Made by a program: the position numbers and the translations under genes
Part shown: positions 3,111 through 18,081 of the stretch, piece after piece
How the letters are laid out: each line of letters opens with the position of its first letter
Position numbering within the stretch: the stretch's first letter is position 1
Notes under the pieces: generated by a model
Told to the model about the DNA's origin: nothing
Databases searched by the model: none
What the model saw: only the letters and a program-made list of their open reading frames with translations
Assembly: GCF_000169435.1 (NCBI RefSeq)
Contig: NZ_AAYB01000001.1
Location: forward strand, 558,001-622,000
DNA from: Roseobacter sp. CCS2
GTDB taxonomy: Bacteria; Pseudomonadota; Alphaproteobacteria; Rhodobacterales; Rhodobacteraceae
DNA: 64,000 bases
Direction of reading: 5' to 3'

Positions 3111-3185
3111 TGGGATGTAGCCAAGTGGTAAGGCAACTGTTTTTGGTACAGTGTACCGTAGGTTCGAATCCTACCATCCCAGCCA
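3111..3185 (+). tRNA. tRNA-Gln (anticodon TTG), CCA encoded
   Basis: A full cloverleaf can be folded. The acceptor stem is TGGGATG with CATCCCA, the D-arm holds AGCCAAGTGGTAAGGC, and the anticodon stem ACTGT/ACAGT carries loop TTTTGGT with anticodon TTG at 3143-3145. The T-arm contains GGTTCGAATCC. The discriminator G (3182) and a genomically encoded CCA (3183-3185) follow. A transposon-like left end begins only 11 bases downstream (3197), so the gene may mark the attachment neighbourhood of the accessory block. Confidence 0.96.
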
Positions 3186-3196
3186 GCTTTTCGGAT

Positions 3197-3266
3197 TGTG
3201 CCGTCCGGCGTGAATCGCAACTTGTCCGGCGAGAAACGCGACTTATGTCGGGTAAGACAGCAACTT
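3197..3266 (+). repeat. Left end of element A: terminal repeat plus two further internal copies
   Basis: The first 39 bases are identical to the left end of element B at 12237-12275. Three successive similar motifs can be read: GAATCGCAACTT (about 3212), GAAACGCGACTT (about 3233) and AAGACAGCAACTT (about 3254), spaced about 21 bases apart. Tandem terminal motifs at this spacing are typical of Tn7-like transposase binding sites. Confidence 0.75.
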
Positions 3267-3362
3267 CTACTGAATTTGTCGTATTTGAGGGTCGTATCTT
3301 CACTCAGGTGGTGTGATTTCGCATTTCCAAGAACCGCCCCCGATAGACAGGGCCCGCTCGAT

Positions 3363-3473
3363 ATGAATTCGGCACCTAGGCATCTGATCCCATGGTTTGA
3401 TGGTGCGATCTATTCTTGGGAATGGAAGGAAGCATTGTGGCGCATTGGTGCAAACCTCATAGTAGAGGTATGA
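3363..3473 (+). CDS. Small ORF (36 aa), hypothetical, coupled to next ORF
   Basis: This ORF reads MNSAPRHLIPWFDGAIYSW and continues to 36 residues. It has no recognisable family. Its stop overlaps the start of the next ORF as ATGA, which argues for translational coupling and is the only real support. No strong Shine-Dalgarno sequence is visible, and the ORF lies in the otherwise empty left flank of element A. It could be chance. Confidence 0.3.
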   Translation: MNSAPRHLIPWFDGAIYSWEWKEALWRIGANLIVEV

Positions 3474-3694
3474 GTGGATATACATTTAAAGTAGTGACGC
3501 AGCGGTTGGGTGGTGGTGAGCTAGATCGGGCGATTTATCATGTGTTCGGTGAGACCCAGCAGGACGCTGCACAAAGGCTATCGGCTTTCATTGGTGGCAG
3601 GCTTGATGAAGAAATTCGCTGTGTTCGCGAGTTGACCGAGAACGAGATTGAAGGTCTCGACCTCGCAAATCTCAAGGTGGTTCCATCCGGCTAG
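3470..3694 (+). CDS. Hypothetical 74-aa protein in element A
   Basis: The 74-residue product begins MSGYTFKVVTQRLGGGELD and is rich in charged residues, with no TM helix or signal peptide. ATG 3470 is chosen over the earlier in-frame codon at 3416 because an AGAGG sits just upstream (about 3463) and because it overlaps the stop of the 36-aa ORF. No family is recognised. It faces the big helicase gene convergently. Its compact alternating helix/strand pattern and good start context suggest a real small cargo protein, perhaps accessory to the defence module, but no function can be assigned. Confidence 0.5.
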   Translation: MSGYTFKVVTQRLGGGELDRAIYHVFGETQQDAAQRLSAFIGGRLDEEIRCVRELTENEIEGLDLANLKVVPSG

Positions 3695-3726
3695 TTGCGA
3701 CCGGGCTAGGGTTTGTTGATCAGGGA

Positions 3727-3804
3727 TTATGCGTTCAACTGCGCAAGTTGGGCATCAATCTCAGCAAGTGCAACAGTACGGCTGTTCAAGACTTCTCTGC
3801 GCAT
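3727..3804 (-). CDS. Possible 25-aa ORF downstream of the helicase fusion
   Basis: On the minus strand, 27 bases after the stop of the helicase gene, an AGAAGG-like ribosome site is followed by a short ORF (MRREVLNSRTVALAEIDAQ and on to a leucine/alanine-rich end). The sequence could form one amphipathic helix. It may be a true micro-ORF cotranscribed with the helicase or the tail of a lost gene. Only reading frame, RBS and position support it. Confidence 0.25.
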   Translation of the reverse strand: MRREVLNSRTVALAEIDAQLAQLNA

Positions 3805-3831
3805 TGCTGAAATACACACCTTCTCGCACTC

Positions 3832-6800
3832 TTAGTCTTCGATCAGATCGAAATCGTCCCCACTCGACTGCTTTCCAGAGCTCCTCTTCTTTTTCGGCCG
3901 CTTGGAACCCTTTGGCACGTATTCATCGCTTAACGCACGCTCAACAAGCCATTTGGCGGTGTGCTTGGGAAAACCCTCACCGTAGTGGCGGATAAGACTG
4001 ATATAGCTAAGCTTGAGCGCTGAGAGCTTACAAAGTTCTTCGTCGGTGTCTGAATTGCTGACCACCAGGCCTCCACCTTTTGGTGCAAGTTTGATGTTGC
4101 TGTTACTTAGACGTTCAGAAAGCTCACCCCATGTCCTCGTTTGGGCAACAGCATTCTCCACGATTCCTTTCAGAACATCCAATTGGAGGTCGTCCGCATC
4201 GTTGGTCTCCAGTGTTTCGACAGCAACGGTTTCAACGCCTTCCTCTTCGGAAACACTATTTTCGGGCTCAACTCGGGCGGTGTTGCTTACGTTGACCACT
4301 GCCGGGCAGCTGCCAGAAACACTCTCTAATTCAAAGGTCATTTCGGGCAGCACGGTTTCCCAATTGTCACGTTTGAGGTACTGAACAAACTCCTTCTCAT
4401 TATCCGCCTTGCCCCAGCGAATGACCGCACCGACGTGTCCCGCCACGAAGACATGCCCTTTTGGCGGTTGCCACGCTTTGGCCATGCGACCTAGCGTTTG
4501 GCCTTGAAGGTTCTCCAACGTCCATCGACCATCACGTTGGATCAATCGGATCTCATACCCCACTTCTGCAGCGGCGATGGCAAGGTGTGCAGGATGATTT
4601 TGGCCAAGGCGTCCCGCGAAGGAAAGATCTACTGATGCTGTGTCCGGCAATTCGTAATGCTTCATTGCGGGTAACTCTGTCCGCATGTCGGCTGCAATCG
4701 GTCGCCGGATGACGCTATTACCTTCCGGCTTCAGGAAAAGGTGTTGGCCGGTAGTCGTCAAGGCCAAGGTCTTTTGAGCGCGTGTCATAGCAACATAAAA
4801 GAGACGCCTGGGCGCGTCCGCGTCTTCGTTGTCAGATTTGCCCTGCCAGCCACCATCCAGAATGACAACATGATCAAATTCCAGTCCCTTCGCACGATGG
4901 GCGCTGAGTAAAAGCAACCCACGTTGGTCACCGCGCGTGTCGCGTGACCACTCTGCCAACCATTCGATCACATCAAGGGCTGGCATCGTGCCTTTGCCAA
5001 GCTCGCGCGCCAGAGCGGCAATGCCTTCGGCGATCATGTCGATCCATCGGTTTCCGGGCTGCTTGTTTAATATCGCAATGATGTCTTCTACCGACAGCAG
5101 CAGCCCCGGATCCTGTCGCATATCGGCAATGAGAGTTTGCATTTCCCTCAGACGCCAAATGCTGGGCAAGGCCTCGTTTGCCAACTCAACCGTGATGTCC
5201 AGCTTTTCAGCGTAGGACCGCACAGGGCCTAGCCGCTTCCATTCACGCGCTATGATTGCGGTCCGATCCCAGCGAAAATCAGGGTCCAGCTTTGATATAC
5301 GGACCAATTCATCAAGCGCCGCCATAGCGTGAGGCACATCCCCAGTCGCGCAGTCTAAAAGCTGTACCCGCCCTTGCGCCACGGCATCATGTCGGGCCAT
5401 TGCGCCACCAGCGGCCTCAGAATGCCTGCCGCGATTGACGGTGATGTCATGTTCGGCCTTCATGCGATCTTTACCCGATCGGATCACCGCATTCGCCGCA
5501 GTGATGATAGCCTGCGTTGACCGATAGTTTTCTGTCAGAAAAGCGGGGCGCGCGTTATAGTCTTCATCAAATTTGCGGATGTATTGAATGGAAGCACCCT
5601 TGAAAGCGTAGATATTCTGATCATCATCGCCGACGGCAAACAGACTTAGCTTCAGGTCGGGATCGACCAATGACCGCCCGGCAACCGCTGAAATCAATTC
5701 ATATTCGTGTGGGCCAATGTCTTGGTATTCATCGACAAGGATCCAGCGGTAGCCTTGGATCAGGGCGTCACGCTGTGCCTCGGCATCGCTGGGACTCAGG
5801 CCTTCGCCTTTCAACTGCCGGATGGCCTCTAGGATTACACCGTCAAAATCATGATCCTCGGATTTTTGGCCCGCAAAACTTGTCCCGACAAGACGCATGG
5901 CCAGTGCGTGGCAAGTGGATACCGTGACCCCGTTTACGTCATCACCGACCAGTGCGCGTAGACGTGCCCGGACTTCAGTCGCCGCATGGCGGTTATAGGT
6001 GAGAACCAAAATGCCGTTTGCGTCTTCGCGTTTTATCCGCAAGAGGTAGGCAATCCTGTGTACCAGCACCCGCGTCTTGCCGGAGCCCGGCCCGGCAAGC
6101 ACAAGAACATTTGTTTGCTCGCGCGCATCGGTCACAATTTTTTGATGCACCGCATTTTCCAGCACATCGACGATCGCTTTCCACGAGGCGCTTGTCGTTT
6201 GTCGCTTGATCTCGCGGCTTCTGCCCGGCATCCAACGATCCAGAAATGTATCATTGTCGCTGGTAAAATAATCTCCTGATAGTTGCTCTGCGTCTTTCAT
6301 TGCGACCAAGCCAAGCTCGGCATAGGCCGCCATGACATGCGTCTGCATCGTCTGCTCGGCGTAGTGGTCTTCTAGCGGTGCAAAATGGGCTTGCGTGAAC
6401 CGACCCGCGTCTGGTTTCAGGTGAACGGTCATCGCGGGCCGAAAGACCGTCAGCCCCTTGCCAAGCGTGACAATGCTTTGTTCATGAAGCCACAACAATG
6501 CGCGCTCCAAAAGCTTCGTCATGTCGCGCACGTTGCTTGATTGCAGTTCGATATCGCCGGTCAATGTCTGCAACAGGTCACCCACCGTCGTCTCGACCTG
6601 AATGTCCTTGCCGCGCGTCCCTGCAGGAACGAGACCGATTAGATATTCCAGCAGGCTTGCTGCCGCCTTTTGACGAATTTCAGCCGTTTGGTCGATTGAG
6701 CCCCACGTACGATTGAGCGTGATCGACAGTGCATTTCGCGAGGCTTTTCTGATGCTGATATTGCCTAGGCCGCCGTCTTGGCCCCTGCCGTCTCGGGCCA

Positions 6801-9453
6801 TCCCGCGCAGCAGTTTTTCGATCACATCCGGGCGCGCGGCAGTCTGATCTTTGTCACGCAAATGTTGGCATGTTTCGGACAGATGCAGTGGAACCGCCTC
6901 TGACTGGGCTGTATCGGGGGCCGCTTCACGTAGAGCCGCGATCAGGTTTTTCTCAAGGGCTGCGACCTGTGTCAGGCGACCAGCAGAATGGCCTTCAACA
7001 CCGATATGCACGAAAAGCGTCACGGCAAGGTCATTGCGTGCAACCCCAAAGGTTTCCAAATCGGCCATCGCCTTGTTCAATTCGTTCGGCCAAAGCCCGC
7101 TGACCCCACACAGCTGATCGGTCGAAATGCCTTCATCGGCAGGTGCGTCTATCAGGTGTTGGACGATAGCAATCAACGCCTTGCGTCGCTTATCGCTGAT
7201 TTGCAGGCCGTTAAGCTTACGCTTTGCTTCAGAAACAGTGCTGACAGTCAGCGAAGAAGGATAGACTTGGACGCGGTTTTCTTCCCGGCTAAGCAGCGTG
7301 GCCTCTTCCAGCCAAGACACGGCCGTCTTGACCCTCGTATCGTCAGTGACGCTATCGCGCTGAAAGTCCCGGTCTTTTTCTTCCTGAACGATTTCTCCGG
7401 CCGTGGCCACGACCTTTCCGGTCTTTTTTGTCCGTTCGTCAATGCGCCGAATTGCCTTGAGGATTGCGCCGATTTCGTGGCGGGCGAGCCGCGAACGGGC
7501 CGACAATTGAAACTGCCGTTCGACGTCATCAATGGCGTACAGCAGCACGCAGTTTGCATCCTGGCGGTCACGCCCTGCGCGGCCAGCCTCCTGTAGGTAG
7601 TTTTCAAGCGAGCCTGGAATATCGCAGTGGATCACAAGCCGAATGTCGGGCTTGTCGATCCCCATGCCAAACGCATTCGTCGCGGCAATCACCCGCAGAT
7701 CGCCAATACGAAATTTCTCTTGGGTATCTTTCTTCTCATCTGGACTTAACCCGGCATGGAAATGTGCAGCCGCCATGCCCTGATGCGCCAGAAATGCGGC
7801 GACGCGTTCGGTCGATTTCCTGCTTGAACAATAAACAACCGCACCTGAACGCCCATCCTGTGGCAGCATTTCTGATATGACATCATAGATGTCACCCAGT
7901 TTGGCTTCTTTCCGCGTTGATCGCACATCAAATGTCAGGTTGTGGCGGGCCGCACCGCCATCCAATAACTTCAGATCGACGCCAACCCGGTCTGCAAAAT
8001 GTGCCGTGATATCGTAAACGACCTCTGGCTTTGCGGTTGCGGTCAGACAAAGGACTGGTGCGGGCGGTTCATCGCCGGAAAATTCTTTGATGAAGCGTGC
8101 AACATAGCGGTAGTCGGGTCTGAAATCATGCCCCCACTTGGAAACACAATGGGCCTCATCAAGCACCCAAAACCCGATTTCGCGTTGCTTTAATATGTTG
8201 CGTATCGAAGTGCTACGAAGCTGTTCGGGCGAAATGATCAGGATGGACGCATCTCCCATGCGCACCTTTTCGAGCGCGTCCTGACGTTCCGGCATGGACA
8301 TCATACCGTTGATCGTGACCGAGGATGAAATCCCAGCGCGTTCCATCCCATGCACTTGATCGGCCATCAGCGCCACAAGTGGCGATACCACGACGGTCAA
8401 TGCGCCTGTCTTATCAAACCGGGACAACGCCGGGATTTGATAGCAAACAGACTTGCCCGTGCCCGTGGGCAGGATGCCCAAAACGCTCCTACTGCCCATG
8501 GTTTCGCCGACAATACGTTCCTGCAAGGAATACCCACTGCAGTCTTTTGGTTCCGGCCTGAATGCTTCGAACCCAAACCATCTTTGCAGTGCTGCGGTCG
8601 GGTCATTTTGTTCGGCACACCACTGGCAGCTTGGATCCTTGCAGGAGGTATCGCGCAGATGCCCTACGATGAGAGACGCTTCTTTGAATTTGGCACGTAC
8701 CCATGGCGGCATGACGGAGTCGCCACCCGCGACGGAGATCCAAGACAACGCATAGGCCATCGGCCAACCTATGTTTGCGTCATCCAGGCGAACGAAGACT
8801 TGTTCGAGGCGGTTCTCGCAAACCTTTTTTCTGACCAGACGACCAATAGCCGCGAACACCTCTTGCTGTGCTGGCCTCACCGCCCCTCTGACGTGATTGA
8901 ACACAGCGTCAAATCCGGGCGACAGATCGCCGCGTGTCGTAAGCCAGTGATAAGCCAACAGGGCATCGGGGGTGTCTCGATTGAGCTGAGCGAACGCCTC
9001 CAGCTGGTTCGCCAAAACCTGAAAAACCAGTTTTGCATCAAGCTCCGGGTCATTCAATCGTCCGGCCTGTAGCCGCCCGTCATGGTAATGTTTGACGAGG
9101 TGGTGATAAGGATTGCGTGGAAAGGCCAGCGGATTCAGCCAAAGTGTGTCGATGGGAGCCTGCATGATTTGGGCCAGACGCGGTCGTAACGCCACAAGGT
9201 GCGCCATATCATGTTGCAGGAAGTTATGGCCAATCGGATGTTCAATGCCATCGATTGCCTGTTCCAAACGATCAAGCCCCGCTTCAATCTGTTCGTTTTT
9301 CGAGACAATTGACGGGCTTTGGTCGAATGGGACCGCCGCGAACGCAAAGACCCGTGCCGTCTTTGGGTTGACTTCTAAATCAACCGACAAACACCGCTTC
9401 AAAAAAGCGCGGTGCTTCTCGGGCAATGAAGATGAGGTATCTGAGTCAATCAT
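3832..9453 (-). CDS. Giant fusion: DnaQ-like exonuclease + RecQ (SF2) helicase + UvrD (SF1) helicase
   Basis: The 1873-residue protein has three engines. Residues about 20-170 look like a DEDD 3'-5' exonuclease (LSVDLEV with D25/E27, GHNFLQHD with D82, ELDAKL further on). A Cys cluster (CKDPSCQWC, about 270-280) follows. Residues about 310-800 are a RecQ helicase: LPTGTGKSVCYQ (about 330), DEAHCVSKWGHDFRP (432 on), CLTATA, FGMGIDKPDIR and LQEAGRAGRD. Residues about 1110-1600 are a UvrD/PcrA helicase: LAGPGSGKT (about 1120), ILVDEYQD (about 1240), VGDDDQNIYAFKG, LTENYRST, SAHRAKGLEFD and YVAMTRAQ. The last 270 residues are unassigned with a basic KKKR-rich tail. All Walker motifs look intact. 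The gene is the largest cargo of element A, on the same strand as the HNH and XRE genes. A role in anti-phage or plasmid DNA processing is inference. Confidence 0.85.
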   Translation of the reverse strand: MIDSDTSSSLPEKHRAFLKRCLSVDLEVNPKTARVFAFAAVPFDQSPSIVSKNEQIEAGLDRLEQAIDGIEHPIGHNFLQHDMAHLVALRPRLAQIMQAPIDTLWLNPLAFPRNPYHHLVKHYHDGRLQAGRLNDPELDAKLVFQVLANQLEAFAQLNRDTPDALLAYHWLTTRGDLSPGFDAVFNHVRGAVRPAQQEVFAAIGRLVRKKVCENRLEQVFVRLDDANIGWPMAYALSWISVAGGDSVMPPWVRAKFKEASLIVGHLRDTSCKDPSCQWCAEQNDPTAALQRWFGFEAFRPEPKDCSGYSLQERIVGETMGSRSVLGILPTGTGKSVCYQIPALSRFDKTGALTVVVSPLVALMADQVHGMERAGISSSVTINGMMSMPERQDALEKVRMGDASILIISPEQLRSTSIRNILKQREIGFWVLDEAHCVSKWGHDFRPDYRYVARFIKEFSGDEPPAPVLCLTATAKPEVVYDITAHFADRVGVDLKLLDGGAARHNLTFDVRSTRKEAKLGDIYDVISEMLPQDGRSGAVVYCSSRKSTERVAAFLAHQGMAAAHFHAGLSPDEKKDTQEKFRIGDLRVIAATNAFGMGIDKPDIRLVIHCDIPGSLENYLQEAGRAGRDRQDANCVLLYAIDDVERQFQLSARSRLARHEIGAILKAIRRIDERTKKTGKVVATAGEIVQEEKDRDFQRDSVTDDTRVKTAVSWLEEATLLSREENRVQVYPSSLTVSTVSEAKRKLNGLQISDKRRKALIAIVQHLIDAPADEGISTDQLCGVSGLWPNELNKAMADLETFGVARNDLAVTLFVHIGVEGHSAGRLTQVAALEKNLIAALREAAPDTAQSEAVPLHLSETCQHLRDKDQTAARPDVIEKLLRGMARDGRGQDGGLGNISIRKASRNALSITLNRTWGSIDQTAEIRQKAAASLLEYLIGLVPAGTRGKDIQVETTVGDLLQTLTGDIELQSSNVRDMTKLLERALLWLHEQSIVTLGKGLTVFRPAMTVHLKPDAGRFTQAHFAPLEDHYAEQTMQTHVMAAYAELGLVAMKDAEQLSGDYFTSDNDTFLDRWMPGRSREIKRQTTSASWKAIVDVLENAVHQKIVTDAREQTNVLVLAGPGSGKTRVLVHRIAYLLRIKREDANGILVLTYNRHAATEVRARLRALVGDDVNGVTVSTCHALAMRLVGTSFAGQKSEDHDFDGVILEAIRQLKGEGLSPSDAEAQRDALIQGYRWILVDEYQDIGPHEYELISAVAGRSLVDPDLKLSLFAVGDDDQNIYAFKGASIQYIRKFDEDYNARPAFLTENYRSTQAIITAANAVIRSGKDRMKAEHDITVNRGRHSEAAGGAMARHDAVAQGRVQLLDCATGDVPHAMAALDELVRISKLDPDFRWDRTAIIAREWKRLGPVRSYAEKLDITVELANEALPSIWRLREMQTLIADMRQDPGLLLSVEDIIAILNKQPGNRWIDMIAEGIAALARELGKGTMPALDVIEWLAEWSRDTRGDQRGLLLLSAHRAKGLEFDHVVILDGGWQGKSDNEDADAPRRLFYVAMTRAQKTLALTTTGQHLFLKPEGNSVIRRPIAADMRTELPAMKHYELPDTASVDLSFAGRLGQNHPAHLAIAAAEVGYEIRLIQRDGRWTLENLQGQTLGRMAKAWQPPKGHVFVAGHVGAVIRWGKADNEKEFVQYLKRDNWETVLPEMTFELESVSGSCPAVVNVSNTARVEPENSVSEEEGVETVAVETLETNDADDLQLDVLKGIVENAVAQTRTWGELSERLSNSNIKLAPKGGGLVVSNSDTDEELCKLSALKLSYISLIRHYGEGFPKHTAKWLVERALSDEYVPKGSKRPKKKRSSGKQSSGDDFDLIED

Positions 9454-9609
9454 TTGGGAGGATGGAACACAAATCTTAGGATGTGTGCAACTGGAACGTT
9501 ATTGCTGCCGAATGCAGGCCAAACCGCGCAACAAATATATTTCAATGGCTGCTTTCAGGTCTAAGTCTAAGGGCTGCCGCTCGTAGCTCAGATTTGGCGT
9601 GGTTCACAG

Positions 9610-10509
9610 CTAGTGCTTGAAGCAGTGCTCCCTATGCCACGACACAAACTCTGCTCTCGGGTGTTCCGCCGCCCTTTCTGGCACCAAAAGCTTGCCCGAT
9701 GAATTGATCATTGACGTCACCGCATCCGGATCGTTGGCCTGTCTCGATACCAAAACCGATAAATCATCAGACAGGCCGACAAGTCCCCTGTCGAACATCC
9801 AATGAGCCGTACCAGACAATGCGATACCATTGCTGATGATGTCGGGACCATCGTGTTCAACCGGCCTAATATGTGCAGCTTCTACTTCTGCACGTCCGCC
9901 ACCGTTGATGAGACGCAGACCGGTTATCGCGCAGCGTTCGCCATAGGCACGGAGAACGGTTTTGCGGAAGTTGCGGTCGCGCACCGCCCTGTTGGTTAGT
10001 TGATTGATGCGTTCTCTGGCGGTTGGCAACTGGAAGGGCACTTGATCTTCTTTGAACCCGCCATTTTCGCTGAGCCGACCGACCCGAGGAAGGATGTCGT
10101 GATCTGTCCCGAGGCCGAGCTCCACGATCCGGGCAAAATCAGTTGGTGATAGCGGTCGGACAGCCGCTTGAGCCCGTCCGGAGATCTTCCCGACATCATT
10201 GAGCAAACCTTGCTCGACAATCTTGTGTTCAAAGCGAAACGGCACCGGATCGCCAAAGTCGAGATATGTCCCCGGTTCAATCACCGCTAAGTGCATGTCC
10301 GCATTCCTGTGATCAGGAATGACCTCCTGCACTTTGGCGACGGCGAAATAGCCCTTAGTGTTTCTGACCTTGCTGGGCTCGAGGTAGACAATCCAGTCAC
10401 CCTCACATTGCTGAACCCGTGTCAGATACTGCTTTGGGAACTGGTATCGCTTCGACGGCACGTCGTCATAAATGGAGTCAGTCCGGTGGATGAAAACGCC
10501 AAATCCCAT
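9610..10509 (-). CDS. HNH endonuclease with N-terminal PUA/EVE-like domain
   Basis: The 299-residue protein has an N-terminal region (about 1-130: VFIHRTDSIYDDVPSKRYQ, GDWIVYLEP, GYFAVAKVQEVIPD) that resembles PUA/EVE-type folds, which in type IV restriction enzymes read modified bases. The C-terminal part holds an HNH nuclease: CAITGL, EAAHIRPVEHDG, and NGIALSGTAHWMFDRG, with the conserved His pair, Asn and Asp in place. The gene stands between the XRE regulator and the helicase fusion, all on the minus strand, so the three may form one operon. The expected activity is cleavage of foreign, perhaps base-modified DNA; the nuclease call is firm, while the modified-base sensing is inference. Confidence 0.8.
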   Translation of the reverse strand: MGFGVFIHRTDSIYDDVPSKRYQFPKQYLTRVQQCEGDWIVYLEPSKVRNTKGYFAVAKVQEVIPDHRNADMHLAVIEPGTYLDFGDPVPFRFEHKIVEQGLLNDVGKISGRAQAAVRPLSPTDFARIVELGLGTDHDILPRVGRLSENGGFKEDQVPFQLPTARERINQLTNRAVRDRNFRKTVLRAYGERCAITGLRLINGGGRAEVEAAHIRPVEHDGPDIISNGIALSGTAHWMFDRGLVGLSDDLSVLVSRQANDPDAVTSMINSSGKLLVPERAAEHPRAEFVSWHREHCFKH

Positions 10510-10771
10510 GATTTGGAAGATGACGATAAAGGACTACGATGCCAACCCGCCAAACCATTTGAAGGTCAGCGAAGAATGTGATGCGAAACCAATGATTGCG
10601 TCAGCATGGAAACAAGTTGCCCGTTTTATACAACATGTTTCCGTACCTGGTGTGCTATACTGAATCGACGCGATAACTGGACGCCACCAAACGGGATGGG
10701 CCCCGAGACGGCTGTCACTAAGTTGCACTATCTGACGGAGCGGCGAGTAACTGCGGCTATGAGGCGTTGGT

Positions 10772-10999
10772 CTAAGACCTAACCAACAGAGTATGGGCTT
10801 CGACACGCATCGCTGAGGCAAGTCTGGCAATGTTGTCGACAGAAATGTTCTGCTCAGAGCGCTCAACGGCACTAAGATAGGTCCTATTGAGGCCTGCCTC
10901 ATGGGCAAGACGTTCTTGCGACCAACCTTTCTCGGCTCGATAGAGCCGGAGGTTCCGTGCAAGCACATCTCTCAGTTCACTTTTGGGCGTTCGTTCCAC
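10772..10999 (-). CDS. XRE-family HTH regulator (C-protein-like)
   Basis: The 75-residue product is almost only an HTH_3 domain (LRLYRAEKGWSQERLAHEA, then GLNRTYLSAVERSEQNISV). It has the size and form of controller proteins that govern restriction-modification and other toxic defence genes. It starts with GTG at 10999, with another GTG twelve codons later as alternative. A perfect 8-bp dyad overlaps the proposed start, which suggests autoregulation. A 262-base gap to the HNH gene (10510-10771) holds no ORF I can support and may contain the promoter of the effector genes. Confidence 0.85.
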   Translation of the reverse strand: MERTPKSELRDVLARNLRLYRAEKGWSQERLAHEAGLNRTYLSAVERSEQNISVDNIARLASAMRVEAHTLLVRS

Positions 11000-11020
11000 A
11001 AACGGTAAAGTGCCGTTTGT
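10998..11020. promoter_or_regulatory. Dyad operator at the XRE gene start
   Basis: ACAAACGG and CCGTTTGT form perfect 8-base arms around the 7-base spacer TAAAGTG. The dyad covers the GTG start and the leader of the XRE gene. HTH controllers commonly bind such sites to repress themselves. The rest of 11000-11203 is AT-richer and holds no gene I can support. Confidence 0.5.
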
Positions 11021-11203
11021 TGGTTTTAACTCTACCTGTTTTAAGATACATTACATCTGTGAAGTTACATTTCATCATAACTCTTGCGCCCAGTGAAGAC
11101 GCTAGCCCAACCGCGGCCATCGTGGCGTTGGCATTCGCCGTTGTCGAAAGGGACAGCTTGGTAGGCGGCGACCGCGTGCTGAATCGTACAAGTACAATTT
11201 GAA

Positions 11204-11479
11204 ATGGAACCAAACCTGCAAATGATCTCATGCCTCGGTTTCAAGGGTGGGGCCGGTCGGACAACTACAGCGGCTGCGTTGGCTGTCGGCCTAGCATCAA
11301 TTGGTCAGCGGGTGGCTCTTATTGATGCAGGATATGCGGTTCCGCTTGAGGAAGGATTTGTCTCAACAGGGCGCGCCCACGGCGCTGTGCCGGATCATAG
11401 CGTCCTTGGGGGTGAAGGGCTTCGGCAGCCTAGTCCACGATGGAATTCTGAGCCCTATCAAATCTCAGGTTTATGTTAA
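11204..11479 (+). pseudogene. ParA-type ATPase, N-terminal fragment
   Basis: The first 40-odd residues carry the deviant Walker A region of ParA/MinD ATPases (CLGFKGGAGRTTTAAALAVG, then QRVALIDAG). After about position 11345 all similarity ends and the frame closes at 11479, while a TniQ-like remnant continues in another frame. So only the first strand, P-loop and second strand of a roughly 250-residue ATPase survive. The abrupt switch looks like a deletion joining a parA 5' end to a tniQ 3' end. It cannot be a working partition ATPase. Confidence 0.65.
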
Positions 11480-12053
11480 GCCGAGGTTCGACATGGTCGA
11501 TCTCGACACGCTAATGGCCAGAGTTCAGCGGCACATGCATCCAAACCTCGCGTGCCGCTCCGCTGAATTCGCCTCCATCCCGAAAGCTTGTTTTGAGGTA
11601 TCGTGCGCGACATCGACGGTCATCAATCTGCTGATGGACGGGCATTTGAAATCCGCCGCCTGGACGCACCAGGGCAAAGGGCTTGCTGGGATCGTCATTG
11701 ATCCGGTCGAGCTTAAATCAAAACTCGCGTCGTTTTCGAAAACTGGCCTGACTATCGAGGATTTGAGGGACAGGCTTGGTCTCCAATACACGCAGGTCAA
11801 AAAGCTGATCGCGCGCGATCTCTTGCCCGCATTTACGGGCCGAAAGAGCAGTAGTGGCCGGAGGGCGGTGCTTGTCGACCCGTCTGATCTCGCCGCTTTC
11901 TTGGATGATTTTCAAACCATCCGGACAGCTGCTGCTCGGCTCGGCATCAGCGAAAATGCCGTTCGAGCCGGAATTTCTAACGGCAGCATTGTGCGAGCGC
12001 CCGACGGCGGCGGCCTGCCCATCTATCGAACTGCCGTGATTATCACCATCTAA
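11301..12053 (+). pseudogene. TniQ/TnsD-like protein, C-terminal remnant of element A
   Basis: The frame is open over 250 codons, but its first 25 or so are out-of-frame parA sequence. From about 11370 it contains repeated HTH-like units: IIASLGVKGFGSLVHDGIL, LRDRLGLQYTQVKKLIARD and AAARLGISENAVRAGISN, and ends GGGLPIYRTAV. A clearly homologous remnant lies at 17493-17819 in the same position relative to the right end of element B. A target-selection protein of the TniQ/TnsD kind would be expected here in Tn7/Tn5053-like elements, but the N-terminal zinc-finger region is missing. The family name is an inference; the homology of the two remnants is visible directly. Confidence 0.5.
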
Positions 12054-12079
12054 CGCGTGTCAAAATGGCCGAATTTCTG

Positions 12080-12101
12080 CACCGCCGCTGGTGGTTTTTT
12101 T
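12080..12101 (+). terminator. Possible terminator after the TniQ remnant of element A
   Basis: A short CACC...GGTG hairpin is followed by a run of seven T. The corresponding place in element B has a better hairpin (17849-17868), so the position is conserved between the elements. Confidence 0.45.
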
Positions 12102-12116
12102 GTGCCTGCATCGCAC

Positions 12117-12232
12117 CCAAGTTGCAGTCTTGCCCGGACGAAGTTGCATTTCTAAATGGTCGACGGAACTTTTTCACTTCAACATCAGAGGCTTAGAAAA
12201 TCGCCAGACTCTAATTCATGCCGGACGCCACA
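12117..12232 (-). repeat. Right end of element A with three terminal-repeat motifs
   Basis: Read inward on the minus strand from 12232, the end starts TGTGGCGTCCGGCATGAAT. Two more copies of the motif follow after a gap: AGAAATGCAACTT (about 12140-12153) and CAAGACTGCAACTT (about 12120-12134). They match the internal motifs of the left end and, more loosely, those of the right end of element B. Confidence 0.7.
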
Positions 12233-12236
12233 CTAT

Positions 12237-12275
12237 TGTGCCGTCCGGCGTGAATCGCAACTTGTCCGGCGAGAA
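12237..12275 (+). repeat. Left end of element B (identical to left end of A)
   Basis: These 39 bases are an exact copy of 3197-3235; identity stops at the next base. The third motif of the A left end is not present here. From 12276 to about 12430 I see no gene: the stretch holds only the junction to the damaged azoreductase. Confidence 0.75.
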
Positions 12276-12484
12276 TGCGGGCTGCAACCGCAGCATCATG
12301 AACGGCTGGTCAATGGCGGGTTTGGGCCGAGTGAGCCCAAACTAAACCGCACCTTGTTCGTCGGAAACCCAGAAGTAAGTATGTTGGGTTTGTAAAAGAA
12401 GGGGCAACTCAGATTGCATTGGGCTATTACTGTTTTTGAAGTCTTTTTAGGAGCCAGCGCCCAGCAGGACCCGGCTGGCAATCC

Positions 12485-13042
12485 TTGATAACCAAGCGCT
12501 TTATCGAAGACTGGCGAGGCGCGCATCACAATGGCGAGATCGTTAGTCGCGACCTGACCGAAACGCCGCTCGAGTTCGTCACCGCACCATGGCTGCAAGC
12601 GTATTTTACGCCACCAGATGCTCAAACGCCCCAGATGCGAGACGCACTGGCATTGTCTGACACCCTTGCAAATGAGGTACTGGCGGCAGACGAAATTGTT
12701 ATCGCAACGCCAATTTACAACTACAACGTCCCCGCATTGCTCAAGGCGTGGATCGACCACATCGTTCGAAAAGGGATGACCCTGGGGTTCGACGACCAAG
12801 GTCTCGTGAAAGACACCAAAGCCACGGTGATCTTTGCGGCTGGAGGTGCATACGGACCGGATTCACCTATCGCAGACCGCGCAGTCGCTCAGCACTACAT
12901 GAAGGTCGTTCTGGGTGTGATCGGGATCGACGATGTCACGATTATCGCGGGCGAAAACGCCAAGCTTGTGGATATGGGTGAAACCACCATGGATGCATTC
13001 GTGGATACCCATGGAAGCGCATTGGCCGAAGCGGCCGCGTGA
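12485..13042 (+). pseudogene. FMN-dependent NADH-azoreductase/quinone reductase, N-terminally truncated
   Basis: The frame from about 12485 reads ITKRFIEDWRGAH and continues through the flavodoxin-fold core of the AzoR family: ADEIVIATPIYNYNVPALLKAWIDH and FAAGGAYG, then a normal C-terminus. The first beta strand and the phosphate-binding loop of FMN, which precede this point in AzoR proteins, are absent in this frame. The only start is a TTG with no ribosome site. Upstream codons in the neighbouring frame (ASAQQDPAGNP) run into a double stop at 12486. The 5' end therefore looks frameshifted or cut. Family members reduce azo dyes and, physiologically, quinones. The stop overlaps the next gene's start by one base. 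Confidence 0.65.
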
Positions 13043-13554
13043 TGGCCACGCGTTATCAAGCGCCGGTCGGAACCGGGGTCGGCCACGTGCATTTACGCGT
13101 GGCCGATCTCGACCGTGCACTGGCATTCTATGAGGGGGTTCTCGGCTTCCATGTTCAGGCACGGGTAGGAAACGCCGCCGCCTTTCTTGGAGCGCGCATG
13201 GCCGGTGGGACGGTGTATCACCACCACATCGGCCTGAACACGTGGGAAAGCCGTGGCAGCACACCGCCACCGCGTGGACATACTGGCCTTTACCACGCGG
13301 AAATATTGTACCCGTCTCGCGCTGACTTTGCAGAAGCGGTATCTCGCATACTCGGAGCTGGATGGCAGCTAACCGGGTCCACGGATCATGGCATTTCTGA
13401 AGCAGTCTACCTTGATGATCCCGACGGCAACGGCTTGGAACTCTACCGCGATCGCGCCCCGGCCGATTGGCCCCGCACGGCGGCAGGAGACCTCGTCATG
13501 GATCTCAAGCCGCTTGATGTAGACCGTCTTTTGACCGACCGGAACTCGATCTAA
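13042..13554 (+). CDS. VOC-family protein, CatE-like (glyoxalase / extradiol dioxygenase fold)
   Basis: The 170-residue protein has the beta-alpha-beta-beta-beta modules of the vicinal-oxygen-chelate fold: HVHLRVADLDRALAFYEGV near the start, HHHIGLNTWES in the middle, and YLDDPDGNGLELYRDR late. The His and Glu residues at the usual metal positions are present. Sequence style is that of CatE-type proteins, which in other bacteria sit in catechol/quinone stress regulons, often beside azoreductases as here. It overlaps the azoreductase stop by one base (TGATG), so the two were one transcript. The exact substrate cannot be told. Confidence 0.85.
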   Translation: MATRYQAPVGTGVGHVHLRVADLDRALAFYEGVLGFHVQARVGNAAAFLGARMAGGTVYHHHIGLNTWESRGSTPPPRGHTGLYHAEILYPSRADFAEAVSRILGAGWQLTGSTDHGISEAVYLDDPDGNGLELYRDRAPADWPRTAAGDLVMDLKPLDVDRLLTDRNSI

Positions 13555-13573
13555 AGACCTCTGTCCCATCCTC

Positions 13574-14446
13574 CTACGAAAACGCTGGCTTCAGCTCGTC
13601 CTCGACCCAACTGCGGAAGCTCGTGGGACTCGCGTCTCGCGGGACACTCGGTTTTATTTCATCGAGGCCAGCGTATTTGGCAGTCATCATAGCAGCGTAG
13701 TCATGGACCATACCGTCGGAAGCACCCATGTTGCGTAACATCGCTGCGAAATCAGGCATAGGCGTTTCGTGGAACGCGACAGAACGGCCCAAGACATCTG
13801 ACAGTATCTCTGCCATTTGCGCATGAGATAGGTTCTCCGGACCAACCATTGGCACCTCTTCAACTCCGGTCCAGTCTTTGTCTGTCAAGAGACGCACAGC
13901 TTCTCTCGCGACATCGGCTTTCGCGACCAGCGGCATGATCCGGTCCGGTGGAGCCAGCGCGTAGAGCGCGCCGCCACGGATTGCCTCAAGCTGGCGCATG
14001 AGATTGTCCATGAGAGATGCGCAGCAAAGGGCGCGATAGGCCACCCCGGTTTTTCCAATCAGATCGTCCATAGCGATGCTCGCTGTGACCAGTCCTGCGG
14101 GCCCCGGCCAGCCGCGTCCGAGCGCAGAAATGCCCACTACATGCGTGACGTCCGATCCTGGCAACGCCTTAGCAAATGCGCGCGAGAAGTCCACATAGGC
14201 GGCATGGGCACTGGCTTCAATTGGACTGCCAGGTGGAAGCCAGAATACCGCGCGCACTCCGGTCAAAGCTGATCCGATTACGTCCGCATCTCCATGAGAA
14301 CCCTCTACTATGTCGATACGATCCCTCAACGCGGTCGGCAGCTTTGCGGGATCGCGGGCGATGACCCGGAGAGGAATGTCAGTTTCTGACAGGCTGCGAA
14401 AAACGCGCGAACCGATGTCGCCGGTAGGTGTCGTAATAAGGATCAT
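13574..14446 (-). CDS. NmrA-type NAD(P)-binding reductase (QorB-like)
   Basis: The 290-residue protein begins with a Rossmann motif (MILITTPTGDIGSRVFRSL) and follows the NmrA/HSCARG pattern of atypical short-chain dehydrogenases: VRAVFWLPPGSP, VVGISALGRG, RALCCASLMDNLM and a C-terminal cap with VGPENLSHAQMAEI. There is no YxxxK catalytic pair. Relatives act as NADPH sensors or NAD(P)H:quinone reductases. It is convergent with the VOC gene and shares the electrophile/redox theme of the element. Start ATG 14446 follows a GGAGC-like ribosome site. Confidence 0.8.
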   Translation of the reverse strand: MILITTPTGDIGSRVFRSLSETDIPLRVIARDPAKLPTALRDRIDIVEGSHGDADVIGSALTGVRAVFWLPPGSPIEASAHAAYVDFSRAFAKALPGSDVTHVVGISALGRGWPGPAGLVTASIAMDDLIGKTGVAYRALCCASLMDNLMRQLEAIRGGALYALAPPDRIMPLVAKADVAREAVRLLTDKDWTGVEEVPMVGPENLSHAQMAEILSDVLGRSVAFHETPMPDFAAMLRNMGASDGMVHDYAAMMTAKYAGLDEIKPSVPRDASPTSFRSWVEDELKPAFS

Positions 14447-14529
14447 TTGAATAGCTCCAGAAATATGAATTCAGAATTGTTTAGGAAGTCGTCCAGACTC
14501 CCGTCAGCGGGTTCGGATCCGACTGATCC

Positions 14530-15117
14530 TCATTGGCTTGACGGCGTCAGGTTCATCAGAGCTTCGCCGCTTGCGAAATTGATCGGTACCGATACGTGGT
14601 CGTGAACAACCAACCAGTCTCCGTCGACCCGACGCAGAACATTGGTCTCGCGGGCCCACATATCGATGTATTGGCCAAACGCCGTGCCTTCGAGACGGGT
14701 CAGTCCGCGCACGGTTGCGATATCGCCCGACTGATAGACTGTGAGGTTCTCGATAGTGACTTCCAGGTCGTCCTCGAACATCTCGAAGAAGCTGACCCAG
14801 TTCGCCCGCCAGATCGGCTCGCCATCAAAGGCCATAGCAAGACCATCATCGGTCGGCGCCGCCATCATGTCATAGGAGTAGATCTCATCTACATAGAAGG
14901 ACATGATGCTTTCAACATTTTGATTTTCGAACGCTTCGACCCAAGATGCGCGTGCGGCTGCTATTTCATAGGCGGCGTCCACGTCCTCTGTGTATTCCGG
15001 TACAATAACCTCAAACGGCAGCTTGTCGGACACGTCCTGAGCGATCGCTTGGCTTGACATTGTTAAACCCAGAGCCACCGCGACTGGTGGCAGAAGTCGA
15101 TTAATTGGTTTGTGCAT
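14530..15117 (-). CDS. Secreted SnoaL/NTF2-like protein
   Basis: The 195-residue product starts with a signal peptide (HKPINRLLPPVAVALGLTM, then SSQAIAQ), followed by an NTF2-like fold of the SnoaL/DUF4440 group: AARASWVEAFENQNVESIM, IWRANWVSFFEMFED, and VRGLTRLEGTAFG with W and D residues lining the cone. ATG 15117 is preferred over a codon 30 residues earlier because it has AGGAGAG just upstream and gives the signal peptide. Function is unknown; the periplasmic place suggests ligand binding or isomerisation. It is divergent from the AraC gene, a usual arrangement for a regulator and its target. Confidence 0.75.
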   Translation of the reverse strand: MHKPINRLLPPVAVALGLTMSSQAIAQDVSDKLPFEVIVPEYTEDVDAAYEIAAARASWVEAFENQNVESIMSFYVDEIYSYDMMAAPTDDGLAMAFDGEPIWRANWVSFFEMFEDDLEVTIENLTVYQSGDIATVRGLTRLEGTAFGQYIDMWARETNVLRRVDGDWLVVHDHVSVPINFASGEALMNLTPSSQ

Positions 15118-15214
15118 ACTCTCTCCTACTGCTGTCTCCGTGAACACATAGCCTCGACCTTTGGAACGAAAAATGGCTATATGTTCGCATTTCTGTAGCG
15201 AGCGTTCTTAGGTC

Positions 15215-16120
15215 ATGGACCCATTGTCGGATATTGTGTCGATGCTCCGCCCTCATGACTGCGTTGCTGCTGGTCTTGATGCCGGTGGCCATTGGGCGAT
15301 CCGATTCGGAGCCCACGAAGGGTTGAAGTGCAACGCAATCATCAATGGAACATGCTGGATCACCGTCGAAGGCGAGACCCCGGTTCGCCTCCAACAAGGC
15401 GATTGCGCGGTACTTCCTCACGGGCTGCCATTTATCCTGTCATCGAAAAAAACGCGGCAGGGCCGCGATGCCGAAACGGTCTACGCGCCTGTCCGACATG
15501 GCGGTACAGCGACCTATGGAAGTGGCGGTGAGTTCTTTATGACTGGTGCGCGATTCCGCCTCGATGGAGCTGCTTCGAAGACATTATTGCGGTCATTGCC
15601 CGCACTTGTTGTTTTGCGAGATGGGCCGACGAGCAGGACAATCCAATGGACACTTCAACACATAGCAGACGAGCTCAGGACGCCTCGCCCTGGAGGCGCG
15701 CTTACAATTACTCATCTTTCGCATGTGTTGCTCCTTCAGGTGCTGCGGGATCATCTTGTAGGTCTAGAAAAGAACAAAGCTGGCTGGTTGCATGCACTCG
15801 CCGACCCACAACTCTGCGCTGCCCTCGTCGCGCTTCACAATGATCCGGCACGTAAATGGACGTTGGAAGCATTAGCCTCTGAGGCGAGCCTTTCCCGCAC
15901 TGTGTTCGCGGTGCGGTTCCGCAAAGTGGCCGGGCAGACACCGATGGCCTATCTGACCGAATGGCGCATGCTGCTGGCAGCCGACCGGCTCAGACGCAGC
16001 CGTACGTCCGTCGCACGGATCGCCGCAGAGGTTGGTTATGGTTCGGAAAGCTCTTTTGGCGCGGCATTTCAACGTGTGATGGGGAGCTCACCGCGCCGCT
16101 TCGCACAAGAGAAAATTTAA
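15215..16120 (+). CDS. AraC-family regulator with cupin sensor domain
   Basis: The 301-residue protein has an N-terminal cupin part (about 1-180; MDPLSDIVSMLRP, then GETPVRLQQGDCAVLPHG) of the Cupin_6 type and a C-terminal AraC domain with two HTH units (about 200-300: WTLEALASEASLSRTVFAV and RIAAEVGYGSESSFGAAF, then PRRF). Such regulators often sense small hydrophobic or electrophilic compounds. The divergent region 15118-15214 to the SnoaL-like gene is the likely control region. It is the only transcription factor of element B and a good candidate to govern its redox genes. Confidence 0.9.
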   Translation: MDPLSDIVSMLRPHDCVAAGLDAGGHWAIRFGAHEGLKCNAIINGTCWITVEGETPVRLQQGDCAVLPHGLPFILSSKKTRQGRDAETVYAPVRHGGTATYGSGGEFFMTGARFRLDGAASKTLLRSLPALVVLRDGPTSRTIQWTLQHIADELRTPRPGGALTITHLSHVLLLQVLRDHLVGLEKNKAGWLHALADPQLCAALVALHNDPARKWTLEALASEASLSRTVFAVRFRKVAGQTPMAYLTEWRMLLAADRLRRSRTSVARIAAEVGYGSESSFGAAFQRVMGSSPRRFAQEKI

Positions 16121-16239
16121 ATACGTCTCAGTTTCTAGAACAGCGATGCATTCATTAGGGCCAGTGGAACCGCCGCGAATGTCTCGAAAGAGCCCAAATT
16201 CACCAATGCCGCAACTTGTACGAACGGCCGCTTCACAAC

Positions 16240-16902
16240 TTAAAGTCGTCCAGTACTTGTCGCGAGGGTACGGCTGATTTTCTTCAGCGAATATCCAGTT
16301 TCGGCATGCCAAGTGGAGAACGCATCCTGAATGGTACGCAAACCTTTGGCAGAGTACGTCACTTTCTCAACAACCCCTTCTGCCACCAGACGGGCCGAAA
16401 CATCACGGGAAAGAATCCATCCGTCTACACCAACAGAACGCAGAAAGTACTGGCCCGTAGTGCCCCCAAGGCGAGAGCCATCCGATTTCAAAGCAAGAAG
16501 CAGTTTAGCAAAGTGATCCGGATTAAACTCGGCGACCCATGCCGCAAAATCCGATTTCGATTGTATAAGGGACGCGTTCTGCGCAACGGCCTGAATTTTC
16601 GGGCCGTGCCGCACAATCGCTTTTTTGCCAATCAATGCATCAAAACGTTCGTCTTCTATGTGCGCGCACCAGCCGGGATCAAACCCACTAAATGCGTCCT
16701 CGAAACCCGGCCACATGCGGTCCACGACTTTCCAGTTGAAGCCCGCCTGAAAAATGGCACGTGTCATCTCTGCCAGCCACCTGTCGCTGGGGATTGCCCT
16801 CATCTCGCGGGAAGACAGCGACGGGGTAAGGTCGCCTAAGACCGCCTCTGTTCCTCCCTTCCGCTCAGCGGAAATAGCGAGGATTTGCTCAATGCTGCGC
16901 AT
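16240..16902 (-). CDS. tag: DNA-3-methyladenine glycosylase I
   Basis: The 220-residue protein follows the Tag/Adenine_glyco family: FQAGFNWKVVDRMWPGFED, FDALIGKKAIVRHGPKI and a region GGTTGQYFLRSVGVDGW that matches the helix-hairpin-helix-like part. Tag excises 3-methyladenine from alkylated DNA. The N-terminal CxWC zinc site of E. coli Tag is lacking, as in a sub-branch of the family. It stands with reverse orientation to the AraC gene in element B. DNA-alkylation repair next to electrophile detoxification makes functional sense. Confidence 0.8.
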   Translation of the reverse strand: MRSIEQILAISAERKGGTEAVLGDLTPSLSSREMRAIPSDRWLAEMTRAIFQAGFNWKVVDRMWPGFEDAFSGFDPGWCAHIEDERFDALIGKKAIVRHGPKIQAVAQNASLIQSKSDFAAWVAEFNPDHFAKLLLALKSDGSRLGGTTGQYFLRSVGVDGWILSRDVSARLVAEGVVEKVTYSAKGLRTIQDAFSTWHAETGYSLKKISRTLATSTGRL

Positions 16903-16926
16903 AGCTGCACTCCTTCTTGAAAATTG

Positions 16927-17427
16927 CTACCATAAAACGCCGATCAGGATTTGGTGAATAGAAGACAAGCCACTGCAAGTGGTGATTCCCAACAGCAAAA
17001 AGGCAACGCCCGACCATATGGTGGTCAAGCCGAAGTTATAGAAGAAAGGCAAACCCATCAGGGGCATCAATGCACCCATTAGAATGATCCAAGCGATCGA
17101 TGCGATCGCCACGGCTAAGATGGCCTTTGTCGGTTGCGGATATTTTCCAGCGACAAACTGCCATGACAGCGGAATCACGAAGACGAAGAGCAACCAATGC
17201 ACCGCCGTTCCCACGCTTGTTGGCACCGGAGAGCCAATGATGGACTTCAACATAAACGCGTAAATAGCTGATGCAGAGAAGGTGGCTCCTGTCAGTAAAA
17301 TTGCCATGGGATCCATGATCAGCCGAACCATCAAGGCCGCGATCAAGCCTGCGGCGCAGGTTAACAGGATGGGTAACAACGGCCCAACTAACGATATTGC
17401 TGGTCGCAGGGCTATTGCCTTCTTCAA
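16927..17427 (-). CDS. Small polytopic membrane protein, unknown
   Basis: The 166-residue protein has about five hydrophobic helices (SLVGPLLPILLTCAAGLIAA, MAILLTGATFSASAIYAFM, TAVHWLLFVFVIPLSWQFV, AILAVAIASIAWIILMGA, and a C-terminal one). No catalytic motif or known family is recognised. It starts at ATG 17427 and is followed by tag 24 bases downstream in the same direction, so both may be cotranscribed. Its 5' part is close to the TniQ-like remnant on the other strand, so its start region could be partly derived from element backbone. Confidence 0.6.
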   Translation of the reverse strand: MKKAIALRPAISLVGPLLPILLTCAAGLIAALMVRLIMDPMAILLTGATFSASAIYAFMLKSIIGSPVPTSVGTAVHWLLFVFVIPLSWQFVAGKYPQPTKAILAVAIASIAWIILMGALMPLMGLPFFYNFGLTTIWSGVAFLLLGITTCSGLSSIHQILIGVLW

Positions 17428-17492
17428 AACAAATTGCCGGTATCCCGGGATTTTTGGGCGTCCGGGTAAAGCGCAATGAGGTCACTGCTGCG

Positions 17493-17819
17493 ATGAAAGT
17501 CTTCACCGATGATCAAATTACACCTCGTGCCCTAAGTCAGCACCTTGGTTTGACATTCGACGAGTTGCGATGCCTGCGCGAACTACGGCTTCTTCCAAGT
17601 TTTCCTGCCCCGGCTGATCATGCGTATCGATCCAAAAAGTCTGTTGGTAAAACGGTGCTCGCCCGGTTCTTGGCCGTTTATCAAACCGTTACGACTGCAG
17701 CGCGTCACTTGGGCATCGAGAAGAACGAACTTCGGTCAAAGATTTCTAGGGCCAGCATTCAGCCTGCGAAAGAGGGTGCTGGTTTGCCGATGTACTACCG
17801 GTCTGACCTAATCGACTGA
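17493..17819 (+). pseudogene. TniQ/TnsD-like C-terminal remnant of element B
   Basis: The 108-codon piece aligns along its whole length with the end of the element A remnant: ALSQHLGLTFDELRCLREL with LRDRLGLQYTQVKKLIARD, AVYQTVTTAARHLGIEKNE with DFQTIRTAAARLGISENAV, and GAGLPMYYRSDLI with GGGLPIYRTAVI. The frame stays open about 100 bases further upstream but shows no similarity. It sits next to a T-rich hairpin and the right end, as in element A. It is too short to be a working targeting protein; whether the end is kept for another reason is unknown. Confidence 0.5.
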
Positions 17820-17848
17820 CCAATTTCCGAAATTGCCGATGCAGACAC

Positions 17849-17868
17849 GCCGCCATGAGCGGCTTTTT
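17849..17868 (+). terminator. Intrinsic terminator after the TniQ remnant of element B
   Basis: GCCGC and GCGGC pair around a 5-base loop and are followed by TTTTT. The place relative to the right end is the same as in element A. Confidence 0.7.
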
Positions 17869-17888
17869 ATTTGCCTCCTTGATCGGCA

Positions 17889-18001
17889 GAGTCAGCTCTT
17901 GCCCGGATAAAACTCCGTTTCTAAATGAATGATTTTAAAAATATCATTTATTATCAATATGTTAAAACTTATCCAGACTCCGATTCATACCGGACTCAAC
18001 A
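17889..18001 (-). repeat. Right end of element B with terminal-repeat motifs
   Basis: Inward from 18001 on the minus strand the terminus reads TGTTGAGTCCGGTATGAATC. After an AT-rich gap come AGAAACGGAGTTTTATCCGG (about 17905-17924) and CAAGAGCTGACTC, in the same order and spacing class as the right end of A, but more diverged. From 18002 to 18081 there is no gene. Confidence 0.65.
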
Positions 18002-18081
18002 TCTATACTCGAAATCGGTCGTTCACGGACCCGGTGCGACAAACGTTTATTTGCCGTTTCACCGCGTGTCTTGAACCTGTG

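Follow-up and report, generated by a model that had tools for sequence, protein, structure and literature searches.

Two probable stacked and defective Tn7-like elements downstream of tRNA-Gln(TTG) in Roseobacter sp. CCS2

What are the short repeats found at positions 12117-12275 of a 64,000-nucleotide stretch of the Roseobacter sp. CCS2 genome (contig NZ_AAYB01000001.1, positions 558,001 to 622,000; hereafter, the window), and to which kind of mobile DNA do they belong? This range comprises the right end of a first segment, A (3197-12232, with a TGTG start and an ACA end), and the remnant of the left end of a second one, B (12237-18001). The preliminary description reported a motif, GARA-N2-3-GCAACTT, in all the ends of A and B, and took the asymmetry of these ends, dense on one side and spaced on the other, to be the feature with which Tn7-type transposases set orientation. 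Here, we argue that A and B are, with high probability, a stacked pair of defective elements from one Tn7-like family that homes, via a TnsD-type TniQ, just downstream of tRNA-Gln(TTG), and that the repeated unit is most likely the binding site of TnsB. In the convention given in PMC11406308, the right end is the one that lies upstream of the tns genes, and what was initially called the left end of A is therefore the conventional right end; we refer to tRNA-proximal and distal ends throughout. The features are collected in Table 1.

Table 1. Features of the A/B locus in the window. E-values of the four ends are from end profiles built without the window.
Feature	Position	Strand	Basis or remark
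tRNA-Gln(TTG), attachment-site gene	3111..3185	+	ARAGORN; precedes the end in G257, G171, G218 and G404 too
A, left 5-bp flank CGGAT	3192..3196	+	differs from right flank CTATT
A, proximal dense end (right by convention)	3197..3272	+	TGTG terminus, abutting ~21-bp units at 3203, 3224, 3246; unit profile, 18-end alignment, E=8.1e-24
A, cargo: 1873-aa protein, RecQ-like and UvrD-like helicase parts	3832..9453	-	Pfam DEAD, Helicase_C, UvrD
A, cargo: HNH endonuclease-like protein	9610..10509	-	Pfam HNH_2
A, 5' fragment of ParA-like gene, cut by internal deletion	11204..11409	+	Pfam CbiA in open frame
A, deletion junction, 6-bp microhomology CCTTGG	11404..11409	+	common to both ends of the ~10.06 kb present in G171 and missing in A
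A, 3' fragment of tniQ (C-terminal helix-turn-helix part), open frame	11410..12053	+	profile E=8.5e-100, positions 383-598
A, distal spaced end (left by convention)	12116..12232	-	units 12119-12139, 12141-12161; degenerate terminal unit 12206-12226; E=2.3e-28
A, candidate IHF-like site CATCAGAGGCTTA in gap of distal end	12183..12195	+	8/9 specified positions
A, right 5-bp flank CTATT	12233..12237	+	last T is first base of B
B, proximal-end remnant, 39 bp	12237..12275	+	full unit 12243-12263 and truncated second; exact repeat of A's end; E=8e-12
B, cargo: flavodoxin-fold reductase, glyoxalase, NmrA-like, SnoaL-like, AraC regulator, methyladenine glycosylase-like	12485..16902	.	Pfam
B, 3' remnant of a different tniQ	17373..17813	+	profile E=2.0e-30
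B, distal spaced end, diverged	17885..18001	-	E=5.9e-15
B, candidate IHF-like site TATCAATATGTTA in distal end	17952-17964		consensus match
B, right 5-bp flank TCTAT	18002..18006	+	last four match the CTAT between A and B

The repeated unit is about 21 bp long, with the rough consensus GTCCGG...GAA..GCAACTT, of which the motif first noted forms part. Written literally, GARA-N2-3-GCAACTT has no exact match in the window; as a loose part of the longer unit it does recur, and profiles of the ends recover all four of them. A 21-bp unit profile, trained on 51 units of 17 ends that all lie outside the window, places its six best matches in the 64 kb in both ends of A and in the first end of B, at 12243 (plus strand, score 31.3), 3203 (plus, 31.3), 3224 (plus, 29.7), 12139 (minus, 21.1), 3246 (plus, 20.5) and 12161 (minus, 14.9), followed by a seventh at 52170 with a score of 12.2. 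Simulating the window 40 times with a first-order Markov model gave best unit scores with a mean of 12.7 and a maximum of 18.5, so that five of the six sites exceed every simulation and the sixth, taken by itself, lies within the simulated range. That sixth score and the missing literal match are what could be said for a cluster produced by chance or base composition, an explanation that is hardly credible against the five sites above all the simulations, the 34 invariant columns out of 76 in the alignment of 18 proximal ends, and the recovery of all four ends by whole-end profiles (17 proximal and 5 distal ends) built without the window, in which the match of the proximal end of B spans 40 of 76 positions only. 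The alignment and the two kinds of profile refute it. A scan of the whole genome with the models of the aligned ends, at E<=0.01 and with strict filters, returned these four ends and no others.

The layout first described for the proximal end of A, three copies about 21 bp apart, is confirmed (3203-3223, 3224-3244 and 3246-3266, with spacings of 21 and 22 bp). The distal end of A does carry two adjacent minus-strand copies and then a 44-bp gap, and the third motif attributed to it is a degenerate terminal unit, GTCCGGCATGAATTAGAGTCT, which scores 2.9 and reads GAGTC in place of the CAACT of the unit; this GAGTC is common to all seven aligned distal ends, and GAGTCT to six of them. As to whether the spaced motifs do better than shuffled sequence, the first of them (12139) surpasses the 40 simulations, and neither the second (12161) alone nor the terminal unit does so. 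That B repeats the layout of A in a more diverged form is true of its distal end, identical to that of A at 69 of 117 positions, and not of its proximal end, where one full site is followed by a broken second.

The nature of these ends is revealed by relatives in which they enclose complete elements. In a survey of 394 genomes of the family, an even sample of the larger group, the 38-base proximal end was found with <=3 mismatches in four, namely that of the window, G257, G171 (Litoreibacter roseus K6) and G218 (an uncultured Pelagimonas; like the former, of the Roseobacteraceae, Rhodobacterales, in the NCBI taxonomy), and a TniQ profile built from the three relatives selected the identical four at E<=1e-50. 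In all of them a tRNA-Gln(TTG) gene directly precedes the end, at a distance of 11 to 13 bp (12-13 bp in the three relatives), and in the window this is the single tRNA gene. A survey of 390 genomes of the order, a set overlapping the family sample, gave TniQ matches at E<=1e-25 in 25 genomes and at E<=1e-50 in six: those of the window, G171 and G257, together with G602, which has a complete element, G404, in which tnsA and tnsB are absent and tniQ is broken, and G561, where the 5 kb that were read hold a fragment. In the four complete elements (G171, G257, G218 and G602) the set tnsA-tnsB-tnsC-tniQ is enclosed by these same ends, the genes adjoining the distal one in the first three, and all four elements are flanked by exact 5-bp duplications (TATTT in G171, CTTGT in G257, TCAAT in G218 and TCTCG in G602). 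The termini of the complete relatives are inverted TGT/ACA, with inverted arrays of ~20-bp sites, and the tRNA gene is left intact.

The proteins agree with this gene order. A Pfam domain run on one complete element, that of G171, assigned Tn7_TnsA-like_N to TnsA (E=6.8e-06, just above the cut-off), Mu-transpos_C to TnsB (rve being below its cut-off), TniB, the AAA+ protein TnsC, to the third product (E=2.2e-17) and TniQ to the fourth (E=3.1e-10). By inspection, E, D and K positions are conserved in TnsA, and acidic residues with DD(35)E spacing line up in four TnsB proteins. Searched against the PDB, a profile of four TnsB proteins (three from the tRNA-Gln family and one encoded beside a tRNA-Arg in the genome of the window) had the PseTnsAB and Tn6677 TnsB chains as best matches (E=3.7e-38 to 1.2e-33), PseTnsAB being of type I-F3; the TnsA and TniQ profiles gave only chance-level matches, with no TnsA of the PDB among them, and the TnsC profile none. 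In a plasmid collection, three records contained tniQ (one over 96% of its length in two pieces, at 37.7% identity, and two over 36% of its length) and none matched the end sequence. A contig scan with a single protein query, that is, with no alignment, gave only 2 loci.

The same ends at tRNA-Gln(TTG), the 5-bp duplications and the tnsA-tnsB-tnsC-tniQ sets of the relatives thus identify A and B as stacked defective Tn7-like elements, and the initial assignment to the Tn7 type is borne out. What speaks against this reading is the unmatched flanks of A, the mosaic proximal end of B, the location of the G602 element away from a tRNA gene and the weak distal units of A (14.9 and 2.9).

Compared with Tn7 itself, the family shares TnsABC with a TniQ/TnsD-type protein, TGT/ACA termini and a 5-bp duplication, as well as arrays of ~20-bp sites with the dense end beside the attachment site (PMC11406308). 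In contrast to Tn7, the family targets tRNA-Gln rather than glmS, its dense end is built of three abutting units instead of four overlapping sites, and in the complete relatives tniQ adjoins the distal end, with the cargo located between tnsA and the tRNA-proximal end. Tn6677 and the type I-F3 CASTs are similar in having three ~20-bp sites per end and an uneven left end with an IHF site (PMC13370975), and differ from the relatives of A and B, where tnsA and tnsB are separate and a tniQ of ~600 aa directly follows tnsC. TnsD-type homing downstream of tRNA genes also occurs in type I-B2 and I-D CASTs (PMC10293859 and PMC11406308), in which, by the latter source, TnsA and TnsB are fused, contrary to the separate genes found here; moreover, CyCAST inserted 30-33 nt past tRNA-Leu (PMC10293859), against a gap of 11-14 bp in the A/B family. 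This is a further Tn7-like family of an already known kind, and in the open-licence literature we found no published description of a tRNA-Gln-homing Tn7-like family in Rhodobacteraceae. Its small natural ends are suited to testing.

How did A become defective? Relative to G171, ~10.06 kb are missing, including tnsA, tnsB, tnsC and the front of tniQ, so that the 5' part of a parA-like gene is joined to the 3' part of tniQ, from about residue 368 of 599 onward; DNA identity to G171 is 85% over 11195-11409 and 93% over 11404-12237. A single insertion followed by one simple deletion explains this junction and its 6-bp microhomology. It is quite possible, without being probable, that A is instead a hybrid produced by recombination between two stacked elements: no matching 5-bp duplication surrounds A, and the same is true of the element of G404 that has lost tnsA and tnsB (CATTT left, CCATA right), whereas the flanks match in four of four complete elements, and the exact proximal end of A recurs at B. 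Against this, the deletion alone accounts for the parA-tniQ junction, and point changes or swaps of flanking DNA could also have erased the 5-bp match.

The tniQ fragment of A, taken alone, seems constrained, with a pN/pS of 0.25 against G171. When the changes are assigned to lineages, 8 in A fall at third positions and 7 at first or second positions (one-sided binomial against one third, P=0.09), compared to 16 and 8 in G171 (P=0.0009) and to 11 and 11 in the broken tniQ of G404 (P=0.08), and the low ratio is therefore mostly due to G171, A not being distinguishable from relaxed selection. A retained function of this C-terminal fragment is not supported by these codon-position counts.

The genes carried by A, which encode a fused RecQ-UvrD-like helicase and an HNH protein (3832-10509), are possibly defence genes. 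The PADLOC models DpdF and GajB match parts of the 1873-aa helicase protein, and the HNH protein resembles a phosphorothioate-DNA restriction enzyme below the cut-off (110 bits against NF045808, with a cut-off of 180). Among five cargo proteins of complete elements covered by PADLOC, two from G171 match the defence models HamB (L008:1047-3740, in part) and MzaC (L008:12332-15187, E=2.3e-261).

B begins with an exact 41-bp direct repeat of the proximal end of A (3195-3235 = 12235-12275), beyond which the two are unrelated. Because its proximal end is identical to that of A over 41 bp and its distal end diverges as much as reported above, B is a mosaic, and its TniQ remnant shares 39% amino-acid identity over 146 aa with the TniQ of G218. 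A and B contain one tniQ fragment each, no tnsA, tnsB or tnsC match at E<=0.05 was found in positions 3001-43000 of the window, and, lacking tnsABC of their own, they cannot move by themselves. The 1.2 kb to the right of B, used as a probe for an empty site, matched no fetched locus except that of the window. Stacking of such elements probably happened more than once, as suggested by a diverged second proximal end in G218 (E=3e-13), whose start coincides with the final base of the right-hand duplication, and by a fainter one in G257, read by eye. The locus illustrates how Tn7-like elements accumulate and degenerate next to a single tRNA gene.

The gap within the distal end contains a candidate site for IHF. 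The best match to the IHF consensus, with 7 to 9 of 9 specified bases, lies at the same gap position in seven of seven distal ends, tied in G218 with another place. Shuffled gaps, taken singly, reach the same score with a frequency of 0.008 to 0.40, so the support derives from the shared position, in ends that are related to each other. For comparison, PMC13370975 places the IHF site of Tn6677 between the first two sites of the left end.

Where such elements insert, and in which orientation, was surveyed in 56 genomes of the genus with the proximal-end model (E<=0.01), which detected 22 places in 18 genomes. Twelve of these adjoin a tRNA-Gln called by ARAGORN, with a gap of 11-14 bp, and a diverged end in G677 is next to a tRNA-Gln as well. 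Three more, in G431, G462 (C8) and G678 (C4) (loci L154, L155 and L164 for G431, G678 and G462, in this order), adjoin tRNA-Gln-like sequences that ARAGORN does not call, each with a called tRNA-Lys(TTT) 200-300 bp upstream. The remaining places, besides three discussed below, are B behind A, a weak partial match in G602 C4 (E=0.0049) and, in G602 C5 (L049-L050), the complete element with the TCTCG duplication, which is within an N-6 DNA methylase gene with no tRNA. This site includes a 36-bp stretch similar to the tRNA-Gln segment that spans the anticodon loop to the T arm, a modest resemblance that 3 of 1000 shuffles equalled, and the methylase gene may, on this basis, be a near-cognate target. 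Taken together, the tRNA-Gln sites and the methylase-gene site suggest which DNA TniQ reads.

The last three places, in G671, G294 and G458, follow one shared flank, which in G294 (L167, L168) is the far edge of a ~38-kb stretch that opens at tRNA-Gln with a gene for a serine recombinase (Pfam Resolvase, Recombinase); judging by the flank, G671 and G458 presumably share this history. In G294, with the recombinase gene right after tRNA-Gln and the Tn7-like end ~38 kb further on, mobile elements of different kinds apparently compete for a single tRNA gene. The same arrangement could be read as a sign that the repeats serve as attachment sites for a tRNA-located genomic island of the recombinase type and not as arrays bound by a transposase, but this is very unlikely, given that the complete elements carry tnsA, tnsB, tnsC and tniQ and combine inverted TGT/ACA termini and 5-bp duplications with an intact tRNA. 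The tns genes and the duplications led us to reject the attachment-site reading.

When the genus sites are counted together with those of G171, G257, G218 and G404, all 20 occupied sites (17 tRNA-Gln and 3 tRNA-Gln-like) have the dense proximal end directed toward the tRNA, the proximal ends of G406 and G677 being without three good units. Nineteen of the 20 were found via the proximal end or by reading the 3' side of the tRNA, and G404 via TniQ; with this ascertainment, a reversed insertion would be detected only by a distal-end search or by reading tRNA genes, in the genus alone. The distal-end model matched 6 places in 5 of the 56 genomes, none adjoining tRNA-Gln, and 60 of 63 places 3' of the tRNA were read. 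As stated in PMC11406308, many Tn7-like elements have overlapping sites at one end and spaced sites at the other, the end with overlapping sites appears closest to the attachment site, the spacing of TnsB sites is important for distinguishing the two ends, and orientation control by Tn7-like elements is incompletely understood. The tRNA-Gln family fits this description, with a dense end in which the sites abut, compared with the overlapping ones of that source. The claim that asymmetric ends set orientation therefore stands as regards the asymmetry, which is conserved, and the uniform position of the dense end, and we infer by analogy that the asymmetry would control orientation in the A/B family. 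These 20 natural insertions, all with the dense end toward the target gene, add data on orientation control by Tn7-like elements.

A working model can be proposed for intact relatives, in which three abutting units form the tRNA-proximal end and, in the distal end, a gap containing an IHF-like site separates a degenerate terminal unit from two further units. TnsB would occupy the arrays at the two ends, with IHF bending the distal array; TnsA and TnsB would make the cuts, and the position and orientation of the insertion would be set by TnsC together with TniQ bound at the tRNA gene.

Many proximal ends in the genus lack a detectable partner. Among the 13 ends adjacent to tRNA-Gln, two (G602 C15 and G677) reach the end of the contig within 1 kb; for the other 11, the search covered 30-40 kb of downstream sequence, and a distal end is present there in A alone. 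The other ten (G648, G406, G652, G663, G670, G427, G400, G448, G601 and G462 C14) show, once the proximal end is set aside, no distal-end match in these 30-40 kb with an E-value better than 2, and none at E<=0.01 in a stricter scan of their genomes, the distal model resting on 7 ends and thus letting a strongly diverged one escape. No tns genes of the A/B family were found in the ten at E<=1e-5, except for a 100-aa TnsB fragment in G400; G427 carries a different tnsABC-tniQ set. Decay by deletion is the plain reading of these orphan ends. In six of the ten the first unit still scores 31.3, the value found in intact relatives (five of these six also contributed to the training of the profile), so that a retained role is possible, and it is conceivable, albeit improbable, that a solo array beside the attachment site is kept on purpose as a lasting immunity mark that would call TnsB and block new insertions.

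The genome of the window also harbours a different Tn7-like element. Its only TnsB match at E<=0.001 has 29% identity and lies 177 kb beyond A, beside tRNA-Arg. This second element (G000:C11:741477-752182; L013, L015) has tnsA-tnsB-tnsC-tniQ downstream of tRNA-Arg(ACG), and a direct tandem repeat of ~100 bp, starting TGTGAGACGACACATAG, is present right after the tRNA.
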